A DNA stretch of 25,133 nucleotides from a virus, in IMG/VR virus record IMGVR_UViG_3300013014_000125, positions 1 to 25,133 of that record, one strand, 5' to 3'. Under the pieces are notes generated by a model, which saw nothing but the letters and a program-made list of their open reading frames with translations, ran no database searches and was not told the origin of the DNA. Position 1 is the first letter of the stretch. Each line of letters begins with the position of its first letter. Of the stretch, positions 2,621 through 16,914 are shown piece after piece. The position numbers and the translations under genes are program-made.

Positions 2621-2628
2621 TAAATATC
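2621..2628 (-). promoter_or_regulatory. Late-promoter-like octamer GATATTTA
   Basis: The minus-strand GATATTTA overlaps the stop of the previous frame and lies 18 nt before the ATG at 2602. It is identical to the octamer upstream of the gene at 22180. Confidence 0.4.
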
Positions 2629-2905
2629 ACGAGAATCTGCGAAGCCGCGCGGGCGTCTCGCCCCTGTGCATACCGAGCATCGCTCGAGTCTGCGCATCGT
2701 TCTGATGGGCTGCGCGGGTGGGTTCACCCTTCTCTGAAGCTCTGGAGAGCTCCTTATTGAGTCGGGTGATGAACCAAGCCCTGTACTGGACCGGAATGTT
2801 GTAGCATTCCCAGTAGCTGAACCCCATGTAGTACATGAGGAGGAACGACTGCTCTAGGTAATACTCCCTATCGCTCGGCGTCAGGCCAAAAAAAGCTTGC
2901 CCCAA
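2627..2905 (-). CDS. Downstream frame of the gp26-like pair, probably expressed by frameshift
   Basis: This frame gives 92 codons if read from TTG at 2905, or about 86 residues after a shift on the T7 run. Its sequence is distinctive and looks constrained: LTPSDREYYLEQSFLLMYYM, then GFSYWECYNIPVQYRAWFIT and RLNKELSR, two aromatic helices with a conserved-looking PVQYRAWFI. This resembles the C-terminal extension type of tail assembly chaperones, or a gp51-like assembly factor. The TTG has only a weak GAGG upstream, and the first ATG (codon 24) would cut off the first helix and lacks a ribosome binding site. Independent translation is therefore less likely than a frameshift fusion. A one-base sequencing error in the homopolymer would have the same appearance. 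Confidence 0.7.
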   Translation of the reverse strand: MGQAFFGLTPSDREYYLEQSFLLMYYMGFSYWECYNIPVQYRAWFITRLNKELSRASEKGEPTRAAHQNDAQTRAMLGMHRGETPARLRRFS

Positions 2906-3713
2906 GCGGGATTCGCACCTCGCTTATCTCGTTGCAGGATGGGCAGTCAAGCTCGCCCTTCATGTCGATGCCGGGTTCGCTGGAGTCGATATGACGGCGA
3001 AGCTCCATAGAGTCGCGGGCTGGCATGTTCCTGATGAACCCGTTGATCGCTCCGCGATCTGTCTTGCCGTCGATCGCCACGATGGAGTACTGGAGACGGG
3101 AGGTGACGAGGTTATCAGCGAGAGCGCCCTGCTTCTTGGCGCGCTCGAGGACGGTGTTGATCTCCTCCTCATCACGACCCGTGAGGAACTTGAAGTTGAC
3201 ATTCTTCTTGGTGACCGGAAGCTTGAACTCGAAGACGTTCCTACCGGTTTCGACCGGCGCGGTCTCGAGGCGCTTGATCGGGAGGCCCGAGAGATCGAAA
3301 GTCTGCTTCGATCTCGTGTTGCACTTCGGGCACTCGGCCTCAACGTTGTAGTCCGATCCGTATCCCGTGATCCTGAGGGCGACCATGATCGCGTTCCTAT
3401 CCCCGACCAGCATGTCAGGAACGCTGATCCTCTTGTCCGTCAGGCAGCTCTTGATGAGCTCGGTGATGACGGTTCCCTTCTTGATGAGAGCACGGGAGGT
3501 AAGGATGTCCTCCTCACGGGCGGTCATCGCGCGGATGTCGATGGTCTCCTGACCATGAAGCGGTGAATCCGAAGGATAGACAACTCCATTCGACGGAAGC
3601 GGAACCGACTCGATCGGCACCTCGTAGCCGAAATCGTCCTTCATAACGTCACGGGTCTGGATTCCTGCGGGGACAGCGCCACCGAAGAGAGCGCTGCGAT
3701 CTGTCTCTGCCAA
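2868..3713 (-). CDS. gp26-like baseplate/tail assembly protein with zinc ribbon (TTG start)
   Basis: This gene encodes 281 residues starting at TTG, with AGGAG 7 nt upstream. The next ATG is 23 codons later and has no comparable ribosome binding site. The segment SVPLPSNGVVYP, followed by IRAMTAREEDILTSRALIKK and VITELIKSCL, matches what I know of the T4 gp26-type base plate family. Two CPxC pairs, Cys128/Cys131 and Cys257/Cys260, could bind one zinc ion. The stretch FKFLTGRDEEEINTVLERAK fits a folded alpha/beta domain. The 3' end overlaps the next frame by 38 nt at a run of seven T residues (2888-2894). That overlap, and the place between tail tube and tape measure, resemble the frameshifted tail assembly chaperone pair of long-tailed phages. 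It could be a baseplate hub component, a chaperone, or both. Confidence 0.85.
   Translation of the reverse strand: MAETDRSALFGGAVPAGIQTRDVMKDDFGYEVPIESVPLPSNGVVYPSDSPLHGQETIDIRAMTAREEDILTSRALIKKGTVITELIKSCLTDKRISVPDMLVGDRNAIMVALRITGYGSDYNVEAECPKCNTRSKQTFDLSGLPIKRLETAPVETGRNVFEFKLPVTKKNVNFKFLTGRDEEEINTVLERAKKQGALADNLVTSRLQYSIVAIDGKTDRGAINGFIRNMPARDSMELRRHIDSSEPGIDMKGELDCPSCNEISEVRIPLGASFFWPDAER
2886..2895 (-). other. Candidate programmed frameshift site (T7 run)
   Basis: On the minus strand the frame reads AGC TTT TTT TGG at codons 273-276 of the gp26-like gene. A +1 (or -2) shift on the T7 run gives TTT TTT GGC and enters the downstream frame, which has no ATG or good ribosome binding site at its 5' end. 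The fused product would be about 361 residues (275 + 86). Confidence 0.5.
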
Positions 3714-3854: not shown

Positions 3855-3862
3855 TCCTCACG

Positions 3863-4351
3863 TCAATATTGTAAAACACAGTTATCGAAGCGGAGCGTGA
3901 GCGAGATTTCCATCGGATCGTCGCCGTCGTAGGCGAGATCTCCGAAACCTGCCGACGTGATGAACGCGCCCTTGATGTCCCAGAGCTCAACAACGGTTCC
4001 GACCGGGTCAAGCATCTTGAGCTGGCAGTCGCGCTTGTAGAAGTCAGCGTAACCAGCGCGGCCCGACACCGACTCGAAGTGGGTGCGGACCCACTCCATC
4101 ACCTGCTGGGCACCCGAGGGGGCAATAGCATCGTAGAGCACAACGTCGAGAGTATCGAACGTGGTCTTACCAGCGATGTAACGGCGAGAGTTGATCCACG
4201 GGATCTCTTTCTCCTCAGTCTTCACGCTTGGACGCTTCGTCGACTTGATGAGGTAAGCGTCAATTCCTTCGATCGCGAATACCCATCGGTTCTTCCTCTT
4301 CGGTTCGAACTTGTTGGGTAACATATCAGTGACTGAGAGTGTCTCGGCCAT
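3863..4351 (-). CDS. 19: Tail tube protein, gp19-like
   Basis: This gene encodes 162 residues, nearly the same as T4 gp19 (163). It polymerises as hexamer rings into the inner tail tube. The order of elements fits: a polar start (LSVTDMLPNKFEPKRKNRWV), the strand RWVFAIEGIDAYLIKSTKRP, then TFDTLDVVLYDAIAPSGAQQ, WVRTHFESVSGRAGYADFYK, VELWDIKGAFITSAGFGDLA, and a C-terminal ISLTLRFDNCVLQY. AGGAG is 5 nt before the ATG. It follows the sheath gene as in T4 (18-19). A hairpin and an intrinsic terminator lie just after the stop, so the sheath-tube unit probably ends here. Confidence 0.94.
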   Translation of the reverse strand: MAETLSVTDMLPNKFEPKRKNRWVFAIEGIDAYLIKSTKRPSVKTEEKEIPWINSRRYIAGKTTFDTLDVVLYDAIAPSGAQQVMEWVRTHFESVSGRAGYADFYKRDCQLKMLDPVGTVVELWDIKGAFITSAGFGDLAYDGDDPMEISLTLRFDNCVLQY

Positions 4352-4392: not shown

Positions 4393-7300
4393 TTAGAAAC
4401 CAGAGGCGTTTCTTGCCTCAAAATCAATTGAGATAAACTCGGCTGATCTTGTGGGCTGGAGGAAGATCTTTCCTCGGATGGTGTTGTTCTCGATATCTGC
4501 CTGCGTTGTCGTTGTCGTGTCGATCTGGACGCGGTAACGATCAACACCACGCTGCTCCTGGACCTGCTTCATGATCGGGGAGACCGCAGCGTTGAAGCGA
4601 GCGATCGTCGTGTCACGGTTCGGCTCGAAGAGAATCGTGTTAGCCACGGCTCTCACTCGACGACGGACCTCGATCAGGAGTCGACGGACGTTGATACGAT
4701 CGAGTGAGCTTCCCTCGGCGAGGAGAGTACGTTGGCCGTTCACGACTGGTCCGACGCCAGGTGCGGCGACAAGTGGGTTGATACCGACATCGTACACCGT
4801 GTCGACATTCTCGACCAGGAACTTCGTTCCCAGCTCCTCAACGTTGAGCACCGCGCGGTTGTATCCAGCCGGCGCAGTCCACGCGTAACCAAGAGCGTCG
4901 TTCTGGGCGAAAGCTCCGAGAACCGGAACTGAAGCTGGCACGCGCGCTCGACGAGTCGGGTCGGCCGGGAGTCTCATGATCGCGTCGGGGAAGTAAGCAG
5001 CTCCGAACGAGTTGTTGAGACCACGACCTGTGAAACGGGTGGTGGTGTACGAGATGTTAACGGGAGGATACGAGCTAGCTGCGAGAGATGACGTGATGAA
5101 GTTATTCTGCGAGTCCTTGTGCTCAACGTCCATGATGTAGAGCGCATCGAATCGTGTCTGCATCGCCGCGAGCGCGTAGTCGGTGACAGCCGGATGGCGC
5201 TGACCCGGGATTGCAAGAAGATGAACATCGGCGAATGACTTCTCACCCATGATATCGACAGCCTTCCTGTAGGCAGCGACCGTGGGGCCTGACAGACCGC
5301 CCTGGTTCGCGTTGTCCATCTCACGACGTGCAGCTGCGTCAGTCATGCGGAACTTATTCGAATCGAAGATGTTCGAACCATCGAATCCGCCCTGCATGAA
5401 CGTCGTGAACTTCAGGTAGCTTCTCACTGCAGCGCTGGAGAAATCATTCGGAGCGACAACAAACTTTCCACCAGCCGAGCTGTCAATGACGCCATCACGC
5501 TGGTAGACAGCCTCATCCCATCGTGTGCTGTCGACCAGTCCGTCCGAGCCTGTCTGGACCTGAACTCTCTCAAGGGTGAAGCGGTTATTGTTGAATCGAT
5601 CCGCGTCAAGGATCGAACCGCTCACGTCTGCAACTCCAGCGTTGTCACCGACCCAGGGGTTCTGGTAGGAGGTGTGGAATCTCGGGAAGTACTTCGTCTG
5701 CTGGACGAGAGAAGCATCACGGGTCGCCGCAGTGGTCGTTGAGACGCCATCGTTGGGGCGTGCGACAGAGTTTGCGGTGTCGAACTGCACACCCCAGTAG
5801 TACTTGCTCTCTCCGACAGCTGTGGTGGCGCCTGCGGCCCCGCCGACGTTGATAGCACGCCTGAACGGAATGGGCGGCTGACGAGCTCCTGTGGTGGGAA
5901 CGTTAAGATGGGCAGAGGGGCCCACGCTTCCAGTTGAGAGGAAACCAGTCCCAGCTGTCACGAGGTGGTAGTGACCGCGGAACCCAACGGGGAGGGAGTT
6001 GACAGGAACAATCTTATCGACCACGTCATCGGCGAGCTCAACGCGAACTCTCTGGGACACCTTCCCGTAGAGACCCTCTTCAACTATCTTCTGCGATCCA
6101 ACCGCACGATCGAAATCGTAGTAGGTGTTGAGATCGCCGATCTTCTTTCCTACGAAGTTGTCGCTGTCAGGATCAAGATCACAGTCGAGATAGGACTCGA
6201 GAACGATAGGAGAATCATCCGTGTCATTCCAGTCGCGAATCTCGACGGTGAACTTGCCGTAAAGACCCTCGGTTGTAGGAGCTTTGATGTTCTTTATCGA
6301 AACCTTATAGAGGTTATTGGCGAAAGCGCCGTCAGAACGAGCGTGGATCTTGAAGAGGTCCTTCGGACTGCCGCCTTGTGAGATGAAAAACGGCGTGGAA
6401 GGGTGTGTGAATCTGTCCTCAAAGTTCTCATAGTTCGGGAAGACGGAGGTACCGTTGTTGTAAGCCTGCGAACCTGATAGGCAGAAAGCGACTTCTTCAA
6501 TCGCAACAGCGGTGCTTACACGACGTAAGGTAGCTTCAGCTGCGATTCCTGAACCTGTAACCGCAGCATACGCGTCGAAGATATCATAGTGAGAGTAGAG
6601 CACGTAACCCGCTCTCTCGATAGCAAGGGGATCACGATTGAATGTGTTAGCGAAATAACCCTGATCCTTAGGATTGAATGATGCCGTGAGGATGCTGGGA
6701 TACTCAGCCGAGTCAGTGTGACCGTTGAGGAAGAGAACGAAATCCTGCTTTCCGCTACGCAGATCGACAGACCCTGTGAACCATCCCTTCGAGGGTGAAG
6801 CTCCCACTGGATTCGTGCCGTACGTGTCCGACGTCACACCCGGAGCGGAGCTCGAGAGAGTGATCTGCACACCTGACGCGACCATGAGCACGCCACGGAT
6901 GATGGGGGCTGCAGCAGTCGAGGTCTGGATTCCAGATTCTGAGAAGACCCAGGATCCAGCTGACTCTGACATGTAGCAACCGAGGAAGTAGGTTCTTCCG
7001 TTTGTGCCGCCGGCGACTGCATTCGGATTATTTCCGAGCTGACCGCTTCCAGCTTGCACCTGCTGCGAACCAACAACGAAACCTGCGTTCGTTACTTTGC
7101 CGTTGTTGGTTCCTGGATTGGAGCGCTTGCTTCCATCTCCGACGCCGAGGACGCGAACGTAAGTTCCCGCCGTAGCATTGCGTAACCACTCGTTGAGGGC
7201 GAGGGGAGCGAACACATCCGCGTCCGCGCTCCCAAATTCCCTGCTGAACTGTGAATTGTTGGCGAATGAGACAGGGACGAATGCAACGCCCTGATTCGCC

Positions 7301-7395
7301 GTTCCAATAACACCAGCTGCGCGACCGGTCGGCTGTGCCTCGACCACGCCACCTGTGCTGTCAATCTCCCTAACGCTTATGCCTGGGGCTGCCAT
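4393..7395 (-). CDS. 18: Tail sheath protein, gp18-like (downstream paralogue)
   Basis: This gene encodes 1000 residues. The N-terminus (APGISVREID, GVIGTANQGVAFVP, LALNEWLRNATAGTYVRVLG) and C-terminus (SSLDRINVRRLLIEVRRR, TILFEPNRDTTIARF, GKIFLQPTRSAEFISIDFE) line up closely with the upstream sheath gene. The central ~650 residues are more divergent and beta-rich, with many Gly, Ser, Thr and Asn residues. AGGAG lies 6 nt before the ATG. It lies directly upstream of the tail tube gene, the T4 position of gene 18, which slightly favours it as the gp18 counterpart. It could mix with its paralogue in one sheath, occupy a distinct zone, or act in place of it. No frameshift or internal stop is seen, so both copies appear functional. 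Confidence 0.91.
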   Translation of the reverse strand: MAAPGISVREIDSTGGVVEAQPTGRAAGVIGTANQGVAFVPVSFANNSQFSREFGSADADVFAPLALNEWLRNATAGTYVRVLGVGDGSKRSNPGTNNGKVTNAGFVVGSQQVQAGSGQLGNNPNAVAGGTNGRTYFLGCYMSESAGSWVFSESGIQTSTAAAPIIRGVLMVASGVQITLSSSAPGVTSDTYGTNPVGASPSKGWFTGSVDLRSGKQDFVLFLNGHTDSAEYPSILTASFNPKDQGYFANTFNRDPLAIERAGYVLYSHYDIFDAYAAVTGSGIAAEATLRRVSTAVAIEEVAFCLSGSQAYNNGTSVFPNYENFEDRFTHPSTPFFISQGGSPKDLFKIHARSDGAFANNLYKVSIKNIKAPTTEGLYGKFTVEIRDWNDTDDSPIVLESYLDCDLDPDSDNFVGKKIGDLNTYYDFDRAVGSQKIVEEGLYGKVSQRVRVELADDVVDKIVPVNSLPVGFRGHYHLVTAGTGFLSTGSVGPSAHLNVPTTGARQPPIPFRRAINVGGAAGATTAVGESKYYWGVQFDTANSVARPNDGVSTTTAATRDASLVQQTKYFPRFHTSYQNPWVGDNAGVADVSGSILDADRFNNNRFTLERVQVQTGSDGLVDSTRWDEAVYQRDGVIDSSAGGKFVVAPNDFSSAAVRSYLKFTTFMQGGFDGSNIFDSNKFRMTDAAARREMDNANQGGLSGPTVAAYRKAVDIMGEKSFADVHLLAIPGQRHPAVTDYALAAMQTRFDALYIMDVEHKDSQNNFITSSLAASSYPPVNISYTTTRFTGRGLNNSFGAAYFPDAIMRLPADPTRRARVPASVPVLGAFAQNDALGYAWTAPAGYNRAVLNVEELGTKFLVENVDTVYDVGINPLVAAPGVGPVVNGQRTLLAEGSSLDRINVRRLLIEVRRRVRAVANTILFEPNRDTTIARFNAAVSPIMKQVQEQRGVDRYRVQIDTTTTTQADIENNTIRGKIFLQPTRSAEFISIDFEARNASGF

Positions 7396-7428: not shown

Positions 7429-10400
7429 TCAGACGAACTCGACGCCCGCCGGGGTGATGATAAAGTCAACCGCGATGAATTCGACGGCGCGGGTGGGAAC
7501 GAAAACTATACGACCGTTGAGCCTGGACGCTGCAACATCAGCCTGGGTGTTGTTCGTTTCATCCATGACGATTCTGAACTGCTCGATTCCAGCCTGAGCA
7601 CGCACGAGATTCAGAAGGGGAGTCGCCTGTTCGATGAAACGCTGACGTGTGGTCTTGTCGTTCGGTTCGAAGATAAGACCGCGTGCCACCGCAGCGATGA
7701 CTCTCTTGAGCTCGAGGAAGAGACGGCGGACGTTGACGCGATCTAGAGCCGACTTCGAGAGCTGCAACGTCTTCTGACCGAAGATGACGAATCCGCTTCC
7801 CGGGAATGTGCCGATCGGATTGATGTTTGCCTCGTAGAGACTGTCACGATCCGCAGTGCTGAGACGAACCTCAACGTTCGAGACGAAGTCGAGAGCCCCC
7901 CTGTTGAATCCAGCAGGAGCATACCACGGGTAAGAGACCTTATCACTGTAGGCAAGAGCCCCGAGCGCCGCGATGGACGCAGGAACCTTCACACGCCGCG
8001 TCGACGCTGCATCATTAACGTATACATCCGGGAAGTAGGTGGCTACGTAATTGTTGTTGATTCCGCGCGCGGTGAAAGCGTCTATCGTCTTGGAGACGTT
8101 AGGACGACCAGTCGAATCGTCGAAGAGCCTGTTGTTGTTATCATCATACGCAGGTGAATCCATGACGTACATACCGTATGCATAGGAATCGAGGCGACGA
8201 CTGACGTAATCTGTGATCAGGGGATCCTTGACACCCGGGATGGCCATCATGTTGACGTTGACAGTCAGCTTATCAGTCATCATACGGGCTGCGGCGCGGT
8301 AGGAGTTGACCGCGTTGTTCGCGAGCTCCTCACCACCAGCGTTGTACCCAAGCCCCGAGGCAGCAATCGCAGCAGCCCCAGGCGCCGCGCGGCCACCGAC
8401 GTCCGCCGAGGTGGCACGGTCACCGAGGAGCGCAGCAGCTTCGTCGAACACGTTGACTCCATCGAACCCTCCGTAGAACATCGTGGAGAATTTCGCGTAC
8501 TCAGCGAACTTGTTGAACGTCTGCGCTGAACCTGAGAGGAGGGAGGCGAATGTCAAACGATCGAGAGATGCTCCAGCATCGTTGATCCTGTAATCTGTAG
8601 TGCTGGGCACTCCGTTCCTGATGTAAGCAGCTTCCCTGATGTGAGACTCGACTGTGCCCGTGATATCAGATAGTGTCTGGTTAGAAAGAGCGACCCTGGC
8701 GAGCGTGAACTTGTTCGCGTTGAAAGCGTCCGCGTCGGATCCGGTGACCAGGGCATCGAGCTTCTCTATTCCCTGCATCTTCGCGTATGACGTTATGAGG
8801 GTGTTAAACTCAGTTCCAGCGTTAGCGTTCATGACGGAGTTGGAAACGGAACCCGTCGAAGCGAGCTTCTCGAACTTGACGCCCCAGTAAAGCCGGGAGT
8901 CCGGAGTCTCGAGAGGGTCGGCAGCGCCGATGTAGTTCACGCCAGCGAGAGCGCCCTGGGTGACCTTGAACCTGAAGGGGAGGGGAGGAACGATCGCGGA
9001 ATCAAGCGTGCTGAATGAACCGGACCCAGCAAGTCTCGTAGCACCGCCTGGAGTTCCGTAGGCGCGCCCACCGAGAGAGAGCGTCGCAGCGGTGTCGGTG
9101 AGGGTCTGGGTCGTTCTGACGACAGGAATCCCCCTGAATCCGAAGGGAAGCGCGGAGGCAGGAACAAGGCCTGAGTCCAGCTGCGCTGAGGGAACGACCC
9201 TGACACGACGGCTCACGTTCGGGTAGCGACCGTTCACCTGCAGGCGACGTTCCGACTCATCCGTAGCGTCGAAGTTGAAGGTCACCTTCTTGTCACCGAC
9301 CTTCTTCGCGATGAAGTTCGCGCTGTTGGGATTGAGGTCGCAACCGCCGTAAACCTCAAGGATTCTCGGGTTTGTGTCAGTGTCATGCAGGTCTCTGACA
9401 ATGACGTCGAAAGTTCCGTACGGGTTTCTCGGGTCCACAGAGGCCCTGACATTCGCGATTGAGACTTTGCAGACATCATTTGCGCCGACGCCATCGGAGA
9501 GAGTCTCGAAGTTGAAGAGATCGTACTCGGTCGAACCGTAGGGCTGGGAGATGATTGCTGGCGTGCGAGCGTTCGAATAGCGCGCGTCGAACCTGCCGAA
9601 ATTCTGGAGATTTGCTCCGGATCCCGAGAGGATCGCGACCTGATTCATGCCTGAGACATCGATTCCTGTAAGCTCATCCTCAACGGTGAAATCGAGGTAG
9701 AGGCAGTGCTGCTCTTCCTGGAGTCGACGAGGATCCGTGTTCAGAACTTTTCCGAAGTAATCCGAGGAGCGAGGGTCGAGAGAAGCGGTGACAATACGCA
9801 GGCCATTGACGCCATCAGTGGAAGAGAAAGTTGAACCGAGCGATGAAGAGATAGCGAACTTAAACTTCTTGTAAGTCGAAGAGCTGCTGTTGAGGTCCGT
9901 CGAAGCTATGTCATCTAGAGCAGCTCCTGTCCCTGACCACGCTGCGCCAGATCCCGTCATGTCCAGAAGCATCCCGCGAGCCCCCGTGGGGAACATCAGG
10001 ACGCCTCGAACGATGTTCAGCGTGTCCGCGCTGCCCGGGTTGAAGCTTGGGTTGTCACTGAAGACCGGAAATCCCTTCCATTCTGATGGGACAGTTGTAT
10101 TAGCCGGTAGGACGTGACGGGCAGCGAGAAACTGCACCGTGTTCGTCTTACGAGAGTCTCCAGCAGGGACGCCGACAGCAGAGCCGGTGACCTTGAACCC
10201 AGCGTTTCTTACCGTCCCCTGCGAAATTGTGGTGTTGAAATCTGACGTGCTGGCGTTGGCACCGGCGCCGAGGACCCTGATGAAGGTCAGGGAGCCCTTG
10301 TGCTTCAAAAATTCATTCGCGGCGTAAGTTGCAGGGAACTTGGGATCAAGCCCACCGAAGCGTGCCTCGAAGTCCGAGAATGATGAGACCGTGGTGGGGA

Positions 10401-10527
10401 CGAAAGCGGGGCCTGCGACTGCCGCGCCGATGAGACCACCCGGCACGCCCGTGGGCTGCGTGCCTGGGGCGGCGAGTTCAATCTCCTGCTCAAAGAAACC
10501 GGGAGAGCGGAAGGTCTGTTCGGACAT
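7429..10527 (-). CDS. 18: Tail sheath protein, gp18-like (upstream paralogue)
   Basis: This gene encodes 1032 residues, much longer than T4 gp18 (659). Sheath subunits form the contractile helix around the tube. The N-terminus (SPGFFEQEIELAAPG, then GLIGAAVAGPAFVP and FIRVLGAG) and the C-terminal domain (SALDRVNVRRLFLELKR, GLIFEPNDKTTRQRF, GRIVFVPTRAVEFIAVDFI) carry the conserved sheath core. This C-terminal fold, together with the N-terminus, makes the inter-subunit mesh in T4-type sheaths. The middle (about 110-750) is rich in Ser, Thr, Gly and Asn and probably holds surface insertion domains. AGGAG lies 7 nt before the ATG. The next gene is a clear paralogue with the same two conserved ends. 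Which of the two is the main sheath cannot be told from sequence. Confidence 0.9.
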   Translation of the reverse strand: MSEQTFRSPGFFEQEIELAAPGTQPTGVPGGLIGAAVAGPAFVPTTVSSFSDFEARFGGLDPKFPATYAANEFLKHKGSLTFIRVLGAGANASTSDFNTTISQGTVRNAGFKVTGSAVGVPAGDSRKTNTVQFLAARHVLPANTTVPSEWKGFPVFSDNPSFNPGSADTLNIVRGVLMFPTGARGMLLDMTGSGAAWSGTGAALDDIASTDLNSSSSTYKKFKFAISSSLGSTFSSTDGVNGLRIVTASLDPRSSDYFGKVLNTDPRRLQEEQHCLYLDFTVEDELTGIDVSGMNQVAILSGSGANLQNFGRFDARYSNARTPAIISQPYGSTEYDLFNFETLSDGVGANDVCKVSIANVRASVDPRNPYGTFDVIVRDLHDTDTNPRILEVYGGCDLNPNSANFIAKKVGDKKVTFNFDATDESERRLQVNGRYPNVSRRVRVVPSAQLDSGLVPASALPFGFRGIPVVRTTQTLTDTAATLSLGGRAYGTPGGATRLAGSGSFSTLDSAIVPPLPFRFKVTQGALAGVNYIGAADPLETPDSRLYWGVKFEKLASTGSVSNSVMNANAGTEFNTLITSYAKMQGIEKLDALVTGSDADAFNANKFTLARVALSNQTLSDITGTVESHIREAAYIRNGVPSTTDYRINDAGASLDRLTFASLLSGSAQTFNKFAEYAKFSTMFYGGFDGVNVFDEAAALLGDRATSADVGGRAAPGAAAIAASGLGYNAGGEELANNAVNSYRAAARMMTDKLTVNVNMMAIPGVKDPLITDYVSRRLDSYAYGMYVMDSPAYDDNNNRLFDDSTGRPNVSKTIDAFTARGINNNYVATYFPDVYVNDAASTRRVKVPASIAALGALAYSDKVSYPWYAPAGFNRGALDFVSNVEVRLSTADRDSLYEANINPIGTFPGSGFVIFGQKTLQLSKSALDRVNVRRLFLELKRVIAAVARGLIFEPNDKTTRQRFIEQATPLLNLVRAQAGIEQFRIVMDETNNTQADVAASRLNGRIVFVPTRAVEFIAVDFIITPAGVEFV

Positions 10528-13720: not shown

Positions 13721-15514
13721 TTACTTGCCTTTTGAAGCCTGCCTCTTCAAAGCTTCATAAAGGACCTTCGAGATAGGATAGGTTCTTGAATCCTGAACCT
13801 TGCCGTATTCATTCTTCAGGATTTTCCAGTACTTCTCTTTCATCTCAGGCGAGAGAGTATGCGGAAGAAAATCATCGAAACTCTTCCTGTCATCATTTTT
13901 TAGAAACTCTCGCATCTTAGTTCCTGAGATCTGCGTTGTCTCGATTCTCGGAACCGCTCTTGGTCTCAATTTTTCAATGACGATAGGGTCTTTGACAGCT
14001 GCCGCCAACCTATCCTGGGAGTACTTACCCCTTATGTCCTCATCATCAGCGTAGAAAACGAAGCTGCTGACTATGTTCTTGAGCTCGCGCATCTTATCAA
14101 TTGCGAGGGTGACCGGAGATTCAGAGGTGATGAGAAGCGTCGCGTTAGGATAATCACGGTGAAATTGGGGTTCAAGAACAACGCGCCAAGCGTCTATCAT
14201 AACTCCAGCAGGAAGCTCGTCACGACCTGCCGTCGAAGTTATAACGAGAACCTCATCGCATTCTTTTGTCGCGAGATCGATAACTCTCCAGTGACCATCA
14301 TGAACCGGCTTACCCGATACCACGAAAATTCCAAGAGTGAAACCCGTCTTTTCGCCGATTTCCAAGCGCTTCATGACGCGGCTCTTTGTCGTCAGGAAGA
14401 GGTCCTCCTGGCGTTGGATCAGAGACTTCGGGTGAGCGAGACTTCCTAACCTATTTGATATCGAGGAATCGAAGTAGCACTTGTTCCTGATCATGTTGAG
14501 GATGCTGTCGAGCTCAGACTCAGGCACATTCTTGCGGGCCTTGAGCCCTGATTCATGAACGATCTCACTCGCAATCGCTATAATAGTGTCCCAGTACGCC
14601 TGCTCCTGCTGCGGGTCCTCAGCTCGAAACTTGCTCTTCACGTCCGTGCGGTGCTCAACATCATGCTGGTCGAACCGAAGAGCTTTGTAGAGAGTCTTCG
14701 CCATAGAGGGCTTGAAAACTGACCCTTCTGCAGATGAAGTCTCCGTGTCAGTGGACAACGTAGTATCGAAATCAGAGAAAATGTCGTAGAGAGATTCGAT
14801 TATCTTGATAGGACGATCAGGAGTCGAATCATCATAAGCTGCGCGGAGAGAGTCCATCGAGTTCTCGATTTTTCTTCTGACACCTGCGCTTTTAGTTCCC
14901 CTGAGAAGACCATCTATCGTCCCGAGATTTCCCTCGAAAAGAACTGGATACGTTCTCACCCCTAGCAGCTCAGCGTACTCGGTAAGAGCTGCATCATCAT
15001 CGGCCGGTGCTATATTCGAAACCAGCTGGCTGCCTGTAATCTTGTAGCGTGTTGGACCGAAGAGCGTCAGGAACAGACCATGCTTCTGGGGATAATCCCT
15101 GCTGATCGTAGGCTTTCTCTGGACAAATTCGAGAAAGAACTCGGTTCCCTGCGGAATAGTAGCAGTGTCCGGATGAACCCTAGCCATGTGATCATGCACG
15201 AGCGAGTACTGGGCAACTCCTGATGACTTCTCACGAACTTCCTTTTCCCTGCCGGAAAGCCCCCGAGCTTCTCCCGGGAATATGACGTTTCCCTTGTAAG
15301 CTATAATCCAATTTTTGGTGTAATCGCTCGGGTCAAACTCATTATTTCTGCGGATGAGAGTCAGCTTCGTGCCGTCTATCTTCTCTTCGATCTTGATGTT
15401 AGGGTCTCCAAGAAAAGCAGCAGCTTTCGCACGATCATTGGCGCGGGCTCTCGGCGACGTGCCAGCACGAGCCATCGAAGACTTAAGATCATCTATCGAA
15501 ATGTTGGTCGACAT
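13721..15514 (-). CDS. Fusion of ligase-like adenylyltransferase domain and HxGH (NMNAT/NadR-like) domain
   Basis: This gene encodes 597 residues. The N-terminal half carries nucleic acid ligase motifs in order: motif I EEKIDGTK with Lys45 as nucleotide-accepting lysine; EFFLEF (motif III, 125-130); GLFLTLFG (IIIa-like); EGSVFKPS (motif IV, 263-270); and a lysine-bearing motif V candidate near 273-277. The C-terminal part has FVVSGKPVHDGHW with HDGH at 405-408 and ISGTKMR at 529-535. These are the HxGH and ISxTxxR motifs of nucleotidyltransferases such as NMN adenylyltransferase. Likely activities are RNA or DNA end-joining plus NAD or other nucleotide-conjugate synthesis; neither substrate is proven. 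The second ATG of the ATGATG pair is chosen because GGGAG is 5 nt before it; the first (15517) adds one Met. The gene is coupled to the nucleotidyltransferase gene upstream and lies 27 nt before gp13. Confidence 0.87.
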   Translation of the reverse strand: MSTNISIDDLKSSMARAGTSPRARANDRAKAAAFLGDPNIKIEEKIDGTKLTLIRRNNEFDPSDYTKNWIIAYKGNVIFPGEARGLSGREKEVREKSSGVAQYSLVHDHMARVHPDTATIPQGTEFFLEFVQRKPTISRDYPQKHGLFLTLFGPTRYKITGSQLVSNIAPADDDAALTEYAELLGVRTYPVLFEGNLGTIDGLLRGTKSAGVRRKIENSMDSLRAAYDDSTPDRPIKIIESLYDIFSDFDTTLSTDTETSSAEGSVFKPSMAKTLYKALRFDQHDVEHRTDVKSKFRAEDPQQEQAYWDTIIAIASEIVHESGLKARKNVPESELDSILNMIRNKCYFDSSISNRLGSLAHPKSLIQRQEDLFLTTKSRVMKRLEIGEKTGFTLGIFVVSGKPVHDGHWRVIDLATKECDEVLVITSTAGRDELPAGVMIDAWRVVLEPQFHRDYPNATLLITSESPVTLAIDKMRELKNIVSSFVFYADDEDIRGKYSQDRLAAAVKDPIVIEKLRPRAVPRIETTQISGTKMREFLKNDDRKSFDDFLPHTLSPEMKEKYWKILKNEYGKVQDSRTYPISKVLYEALKRQASKGK

Positions 15515-16914
15515 CATCTCTCCCAGATTATTGATTCTAAGATTCGATTGAGCTTTCTTCGTCTGGATTCATCAACCTGTACCTGGTCAGTGTCTTCTAC
15601 GAAACCCTCCTGACCACGCACCTTGTATCTGGAGTAGAAATCTTGCTTTAGGGCTTTAAGATCAACGGTGGACGATTCAGCGTCGGTAAGAGTTTCCCTG
15701 AAGACATCGAGTATTCTGTCCTTTACCGAAGCGTCCTCTTTGGGGTCAGTGGCTGATAGCTGCTGACCGCGCGCTCCGAAGAACCTGTCGACCATCTCCT
15801 CGTAAATCTTGACGATCTCAGGTGGGCTCATCCGCTGCTTCATGATCTTAAGGAGACCTGTGAATGACCCAAGATTATGAATATCTTCCTCAGCAGGTGA
15901 GGATTTTTCACCAAATATATTCATAAAAATTTCTTTTAGGTCACGGGTGGAGTCCGTACGCTCCACACGCTTTAGGTACTTGTAAACCTCATCGCCGTTG
16001 AACTGCCAGTCAAGCTTCTTGTACCTGCTTCCTAGACCGGAGACAAGGTCGAATGAGCGAAGTGGCCTGACCTGGGCAGGCACCATCTGACCTGTAGCTG
16101 GATCGCGAGTCTGCTTGACTCTTGGCTTTTCAGCAGTAGCAGCTGGCGTTGACTCGCGAGCGTTCAAGGGTGGGGGAGACATAACCGAAGCGAGGGACAT
16201 GAGAAGAATCTTGTGAGCCAACCCCTTCACTCCCTGGGATATATCCTGCCACGATGAGGAGTAGGAGAACTTTGCCCATTCCGTCGGACGTCCTTCCCTG
16301 TACTCTGATCCCTCAAAATCAATCTGGAAGAATGTGTCACCCTCACCCTCCGGTGCTGCTGGGTCCCATGTGTAGGAGAAGAGCGCGTTTATCTGGTGGG
16401 ACCCTGGGCTCTTCTTGTTGTGGCCGATGTAAGAGATCCTGTCTGTGAGCCGCTGGTCCTCACGACGATTTAACGTGGAGAACAGCATATCCATCTTCTC
16501 GGCCGGCAGCGTGAGGTCGATATCACCCACGGTCGGCTTGTACTTGATGAACTCCTCATCCGAGAGTGTGGCAGGAGGTGCGAAAAGATGTGCCGATGAA
16601 CCGTTGAAAGCGAATCCAGACCCGAGAATATCATCGCGCTGAGATGGATCCCATATCGGATCACCATGATCCCTCTCGAACTCCGAATCCAGAACACGTA
16701 GCATCTCTATGACATCTTCTCTGAGCTGCCGGCGGTCTATCCTTCCGCTTCTCAAATCTATCTTCTCAGCAGTCGCCTCTCGTCCGCGGAATCTCTTGAT
16801 CGACTCAGGGCCCTTGACCAATCCCGTCTCTGGATCTCTGACCAGAGCTCTTGTGTTGCCACCCTCGTTGAGTGATTCATCGGAACCGAACATGAAGTGT
16901 GAGATGCTGAACAT
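15514..16914 (-). CDS. Putative Pol-beta-fold nucleotidyltransferase
   Basis: This gene encodes 466 residues from the ATG at 16914. The signature of the nucleotidyltransferase superfamily is visible in order: FNGSSAHLF (the hG[GS] motif, residues ~104-112), VGDIDLTL (Asp131 and Asp133, the D-h-D pair) and FFQIDFE (Asp199, the third acidic residue). The spacing from GS to D-h-D is longer than usual. The stretch PTEWAKFSYSSSWQDISQGVKGLAHK follows and looks conserved; the rest is charged and helical. The substrate is unknown; tRNA, other RNA, protein or small molecule are all possible. The frame also opens at 16980, but that ATG lies before the capsid terminator, so it is rejected. ATG 16914 and ATG 16893 both lack a good ribosome binding site, and 16893 would fit the promoter-like octamer better. 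The stop overlaps the ligase-fusion start by 1 nt (TGATG), so the two are coupled. Confidence 0.75.
   Translation of the reverse strand: MFSISHFMFGSDESLNEGGNTRALVRDPETGLVKGPESIKRFRGREATAEKIDLRSGRIDRRQLREDVIEMLRVLDSEFERDHGDPIWDPSQRDDILGSGFAFNGSSAHLFAPPATLSDEEFIKYKPTVGDIDLTLPAEKMDMLFSTLNRREDQRLTDRISYIGHNKKSPGSHQINALFSYTWDPAAPEGEGDTFFQIDFEGSEYREGRPTEWAKFSYSSSWQDISQGVKGLAHKILLMSLASVMSPPPLNARESTPAATAEKPRVKQTRDPATGQMVPAQVRPLRSFDLVSGLGSRYKKLDWQFNGDEVYKYLKRVERTDSTRDLKEIFMNIFGEKSSPAEEDIHNLGSFTGLLKIMKQRMSPPEIVKIYEEMVDRFFGARGQQLSATDPKEDASVKDRILDVFRETLTDAESSTVDLKALKQDFYSRYKVRGQEGFVEDTDQVQVDESRRRKLNRILESIIWER

Follow-up and report, generated by a model that had tools for sequence, protein, structure and literature searches.

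The window analysed here is a 25,133-nucleotide stretch of viral DNA (IMG/VR record IMGVR_UViG_3300013014_000125). Its tail genes lie on the minus strand in the order sheath, tube, gp26-like gene with an extension, 90-aa ORF and tape-measure-like gene. The tail tube gene (3863–4351; phrog_4542 tail tube, E 1.1e-29) is directly upstream of the gp26-like ORF in the operon. That ORF (3713–2868) encodes 281 aa, starts with TTG and ends with TAG at 2870–2868, and a Shine-Dalgarno-like sequence, AGGAGA (3725–3720), is located 6 nt 5′ of the TTG. Its product matches Pfam T4_baseplate PF12322 with an E value of 3.3e-16 (60.1 bits; curated cut-off 24.5) and phrog_150 (baseplate hub) with an E value of 1.5e-21; in a genome search, PF12322 again scored over its cut-off. 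Between the extension and the tape-measure-like gene lies the 90-aa ORF (2330–2602), for which no Pfam or PHROG match was found. The tape-measure-like gene (2–2278) runs off the window, and its product matches phrog_305 (E 6.8e-9) and phrog_58 (E 1.3e-8). This gene order, together with the two PHROG matches, bears out the position just before a tape-measure-like gene that the initial annotation had given for the gp26-like pair.

The sheath region is made up of two adjoining tail-sheath paralogues (4393–7395 and 7429–10527; 1000 and 1032 aa). They share 33% identity along their length, so that two genes stand in place of one sheath gene. The capsid protein of the window matches PF07068 (Gp23) with an E value of 6.4e-75, and the window was therefore placed in the T4 superfamily. 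RM378, Immutovirus and Mel-JY01 are among its nearest annotated matches. A 598-aa protein is encoded farther along the minus strand (13721–15517). Its N-terminal half weakly matches RNA-ligase (E 0.0076, below the cut-off) and its C-terminal half is nucleotidyltransferase-like (NMNAT-type) by eye.

A second ORF overlaps the 3′ end of the gp26-like ORF. When opened at TTG, it spans 2905–2627 on the minus strand and overlaps the gp26-like ORF by 38 nt; the frame itself is open from 2923. Within the overlap is the sequence TTT TTT TGG CCT GAC (2894–2880), which contains a run of seven T (2894–2888) and reads FFWPD in frame 0 and FFGLT in the +1 frame. A +1 step at the T7 run gives a 361-residue protein with the junction ...ASFFGLTPSDR... 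(sequence around the junction, PLGASFFGLTPSDREYYLEQ). The +1-frame extension domain (2893–2627, stop codon at 2629–2627) contributes about 87 residues after the two Phe. By itself, the extension has no match in Pfam or PHROG. When re-read from the sequence, the coordinates, the 38-nt overlap, the T7 run and the fusion of about 361 residues were all as first described. TTT TTT T (2894–2888) is the only sensible entry into the second frame. The initial annotation had also held that the second frame lacks a credible start. This stands for those relatives that carry stops or have no start, and needs qualifying for the window, where the TTG at 2905 is a weak yet possible start. TTG 2905 was excluded as a general start because relatives carry a second-frame stop a few codons before the site.

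We fetched gp26-like relatives from IMG/VR with the window protein (38 relatives) and with the Immutovirus protein (80 relatives). The distinct sequences that include the site numbered 29 for the window clade and 61 for the Immutovirus-like clade. The extension was in the +1 frame in every one of them (29/29 and 61/61), and the site always read TTY YTN ahead of a near-invariant TGG CCT GAC. The sequence TTTTTTTGGCCTGAC, which is expected 3e-5 times per window by chance, was present at the site in 27/29 window-clade and 29/61 Immutovirus-clade sequences; the remaining sites were TTCTTTTGG, TTTCTTTGG, TTTCTATGG and single variants. In one relative (L010, ∼3859–3874) an additional frame change was seen within the extension ORF; an assembly error of one base is the likely cause.

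The initial annotation expected relatives to keep the T run and to lack a start in the second frame. TTY YTN was always kept and many sequences were startless, but the run itself is broken by a C (TTTCTTT and alike) in 32/61 Immutovirus-clade sequences with the arrangement preserved. This bears on transcription as the source of the fusion. Homopolymer T runs can slip in transcription, and RNA-polymerase slippage on the T7 run would give mixed mRNAs from which the fused protein arises. Because of the C that breaks the run in these sequences, we regard such slippage as extremely unlikely; moreover, seven T is short for it, and it leaves the frozen TGG CCT GAC unexplained.

Column-by-column conservation showed that the constraint on the second frame sets in abruptly at the Phe-Phe codons. 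Upstream of them the second frame varies and has stops, in 6/26 window-clade sequences only four codons before the site. From the site onward, no second-frame stop was found among the tabulated codons. The second ORF might instead be an independent gene with a weak start (TTG 2905 or another) that is translationally coupled to the end of gp26. The window does have the TTG, some ATG, GTG or TTG precedes the first stop in the second frame in 20/29 window-clade sequences, and Pseudomonas phage Cygsa01, described below, demonstrates that a separate, ATG-started version of the extension can exist. However, the starts are at scattered positions and are mostly GTG or TTG, and no ATG, GTG or TTG was present before the first stop in 9/29 window-clade sequences, 16/61 Immutovirus-clade sequences and 69/76 of the cyanophage-like sequences considered below, despite conserved FFGLTP or FFR residues. 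The constraint begins at the T run and not at any start codon, and an independent start does not explain why the TTT TTT TGG codons are frozen. We thus consider an independent gene very improbable.

Codon use also sets the site apart. Window-clade sequences encode the second Phe by TTT (29/29), the Pro by CCT (29/29) and the Asp by GAC (28/28), whereas six other conserved Phe columns are mixed in codon use and other Pro and Asp codons vary freely. The sequence TGG CCT GAC NCC in frame 0 is GGC CTG ACN CC in the +1 frame. The freezing of these codons is therefore in part double coding, and such double coding in turn speaks for the reading of both frames. The window-clade extension has a median pN/pS of 0.076 (24 unsaturated pairs), indicating purifying selection. 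The value for the Immutovirus-clade extension is 0.605, which is possibly inflated by a variable C-terminal tail.

In a blind scan, the 15-mer TTTTTTTGGCCTGAC was looked for in 2.9 million viral contigs with no use of protein information. The loci were scored by HMMs built from the earlier sequences, and some of them may repeat contigs fetched before. Among the matches listed (at least 80 loci), 80/80 combined a gp26-like protein that ends at the site with a +1-frame extension domain.

Taken together, frame, site, codons and blind scan support the programmed +1 frameshift at the T run that had been proposed as a candidate. The sequence evidence supports well both that the second frame is used and that it is entered at the T-rich site. 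We consider it very likely that this tail-assembly-chaperone gene of a T4-superfamily phage is expressed through a programmed +1 ribosomal frameshift.

We infer which codon slips, how often the shift occurs and what roles the two proteins play. Most ribosomes would end at the 281-aa gp26-like short form. Some ribosomes, whose P-site tRNA-Phe is paired to UUU, would slip forward by one base at UUU YUN UGG; alternatively, a neighbouring codon able to slide onto UUU or UUC would be the one to slip. Reading onward in the +1 frame would give the 361-aa long form with an extra helical domain. Re-pairing after a +1 step is possible in every variant seen in the window and Immutovirus clades, at a TTT with T or C after it or at a CTT with T after it. 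The codon able to slip differs by variant: TTT CTA TGG needs the first codon and TTC TTT TGG the second. The A-site codon, TGG, is nearly invariant.

A −2 frameshift, as in Mu, had been named as an alternative at the T7 run. Taken by itself, the window sequence leads to the same frame by −2 and by +1. The junction peptide expected from +1 is ASFFGLTP with two Phe, and that expected from −2 is ASFFFGLTP with three (ASFFFGLTPSDR). However, relatives with TTC TTT TGG, TTT CTT TGG, TTT CTA TGG or TTT CTT TAC keep the same frame relation, and on these sites the tRNA cannot re-pair two bases back. The −2 alternative was thus not borne out, and we give it very little probability.

Known +1 systems offer a partial parallel to the +1 shift proposed here. 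SPP1 has +1 frameshifted tail genes. In Escherichia coli prfB, the +1 slide is from CUU to UUU, where the A site holds a stop codon and a Shine-Dalgarno element lies close by. The CTT TGG variants of the window family could likewise slide tRNA-Leu from CTT to TTT, but neither an A-site stop codon nor a close Shine-Dalgarno element like that of prfB was seen in this family, where inspection by eye revealed no conserved element of this kind. A search for 3′ RNA structure in the two +1 clades found none (mean z −0.02 and 0.17). The tail gene frameshift of the Halorubrum myovirus HSTV-2 has been cited as very likely +1 (PMC5009743). HSTV-2, SPP1 and prfB share the +1 direction with the window but belong to other protein families.

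We read distant PF12322 genes of isolates by hand. A +1 second frame is kept in Bacillus SP-15, Listeria LIS04, Streptococcus GXN1, Mel-JY01 and Immutovirus, and also in Streptomyces BRock (TTT CGC) and LuckySocke (TTT CAG). For LIS04 and the metagenomic phage L042, where the exact slip point is less sharply placed, we note only an open +1 frame that is conserved in kind. The BRock extension, when compared with DUF6760 of contractile injection systems, gave only an E value of 0.2. A wider scan with the SP-15 protein returned only SP-15 itself, and one with the RAS14 protein returned none.

These isolates also bear on whether the layout could be a sequencing or assembly error or a decaying pseudogene, as the window is a metagenomic contig and L010 has an extra indel in its extension. 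The same layout was found in 90 distinct relatives and at least 80 blind-scan loci (some of which may overlap), isolates included: Immutovirus, Mel-JY01, SP-15, LIS04, BRock and LuckySocke have the same +1 layout. The window-clade extension is, in addition, under purifying selection. Conservation of the layout in isolates refutes error or decay, to which we assign next to no probability.

In other phages the second frame is −1. This was the case in Stenotrophomonas RAS14 (T TTT TTT), Pseudomonas MIJ3 (T TTT TTC), Vibrio Bakedbeans and cyanophage S-RIM8 (both T TTT TTC). A further 80 cyanophage-like loci, 76 of them distinct, were collected. T_TTT_TTC was present at the Phe-Phe codons in 76/76, and the extension was in the −1 frame, the 69 sequences counted above having no start codon before the first stop. 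An in-frame T_TTT_TTC is also present in the 595-kb phage L049. Downstream RNA structure in the cyanophages is weak (mean z −0.76). Cygsa01 (L226 2807–2982) has lost the slippery site, and its extension starts from a separate ATG that overlaps the gp26 stop (TAATG). This arrangement indicates that a third solution exists, in which two coupled genes are a natural replacement of the frameshift.

When profiles of the window long form and the cyanophage long form were compared, they aligned over the full length, junction included, with an E value of 1.8e-9 and a probability of 96.3. The extensions alone gave a modest match (E 1.5e-3), against 0.0034 to 0.81 for 30 column-shuffled controls. On these profiles, homology of the window pair with the cyanophage pair is well supported. 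Like the window, the cyanophage gp26/‘gp51 catalyst’ gene of S-RIM8 has two domains, a Phe-Phe junction and a place in the order before a large downstream gene. Unlike the window, the cyanophages have a predicted −1 shift at a canonical T_TTT_TTC, and their annotated gp51 is truncated, with an internal ATG as its start.

T4 itself has a gp26 and a gp51, and both match PF12322 (E 8.8e-64 and 3.9e-52). T4 gp51 has about 48 further residues. PMC3004832 describes it as a protein of unknown function that is essential for assembly and does not occur in the particle. The cyanophage long-form profile matched gp51 relatives over nearly their full length (E 2.3e-12, probability 97.7), and the cyanophage extension alone matched the gp51 C-terminus with an E value of 5e-8. 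Compared directly, the profiles of the window extension and of the gp51 C-terminus gave no significant match (E 0.62); the link from the window to gp51 runs via the cyanophages (E 1.5e-3, then 5e-8). PHROG 634, ‘baseplate hub assembly catalyst’, unites gp51 and the −1 ORF of S-RIM8. That T4 gp26 and gp51 are paralogues is well supported by their sequences. With PF12322 shared and the gp51 extension homologous to the cyanophage frameshift extension, T4 appears to encode gp26 as the short form and gp51, separately, as the long form. Unlike the window, it does so with separate genes on opposite strands and no frameshift.

The arrangement had been described as not the textbook one for T4-like phages. 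This is right for T4 itself, but not for the superfamily, in which frameshifting by −1 or +1 looks common from the genomes compared here and the two-gene split of T4 looks like the exception. We think it likely that the T4 superfamily has a frameshifted chaperone with one Phe-Phe site, shifted by −1 or +1 according to lineage, and that a duplication replaced it in T4. If true, this would account both for the listing of T4 as an exception and for its need of two ‘hub assembly catalysts’.

Lambda gpG, the short form, coats the tape measure, and it is through the extension of gpGT that the tube subunit is brought in (PMC5009743). Comparative evidence indicates that the second ORF of the window has no start of its own and is reached through a shift in the 3′-terminal part of the gp26-like ORF, which is the arrangement of the gpG/gpGT type. 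Like lambda gpG/gpGT, the window gene has a small extension, predicted short and long forms, and a place between the tube and tape-measure genes. Unlike in gpG/gpGT, the predicted shift is +1 and not −1, and the likeness to gpG is one of arrangement, not of demonstrated sequence similarity. A further difference from gpG is that the short form of the window clade has about 280 aa with Cys-pair (zinc-ribbon-like) motifs. The tie between the gp26 family and the gpG/gpGT logic of short and long chaperone forms, put forward in the initial annotation, is thus supported by comparative evidence.

Structures were predicted for the window short form (AlphaFold, pLDDT 84.8) and for natural gp51 relatives. 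When the short-form model was compared with solved structures (VIA-align), the HK97 tail assembly chaperone 2ob9 was the best match, with a Z score of 5.6 over 82 residues at an rmsd of 3.7; the next-best structure had a Z of 3.6. A Z of 5.6 is below the level where fold identity is safe. A Foldseek search of the PDB with the short-form model gave nothing below an E value of 0.001, and a PDB sequence search found no relative. With the gp51 model, the HK97 chaperone was not among the structural matches, a result that excludes nothing. Because the Z score is too low for proof, yet the top match is the expected family, we infer a chaperone role for the short and long forms with moderate strength. 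On the analogy of lambda gpG/gpGT, the tape-measure protein would be coated by the short form, and the tail tube subunit would be recruited by the extension of the long form.

Frameshifting in tail-chaperone genes has been called a conserved trait of long-tailed phages, ‘except T4’ (Xu, Hendrix and Duda 2004; review, PMC5009743). From the sequences, a frameshifted tail chaperone appears to be present in the gp26 family, by +1 here and by −1 in cyanophages, with two genes in T4. This reading offers one answer both to ‘except T4’ (PMC5009743) and to the puzzle of gp51 (PMC3004832), as gp26 would be the short and gp51 the long chaperone form of T4. Homologous sites that shift in opposite directions (−1 and +1) would be a rare case, in which selection seems to favour the two products and not the mechanism. 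We found no earlier description of gp26/gp51 frameshifting in the open-access literature that we searched, subscription papers being outside that scope. ‘Tape measure chaperone’ and like names have already been given by some depositors to T4-like proteins.

In practice, some phage annotations mis-call the extension or cut it short. The S-RIM8 record (KX349288, L052 4732–4869) has its ‘baseplate hub assembly catalyst’ start at an internal ATG, whereas the −1 frame is already open from T_TTT_TTC. The record therefore truncates the protein, with the front part missing. Similarly short calls were seen in Immutovirus (L041 3839–3949) and SP-15 (L044 3755–3874).
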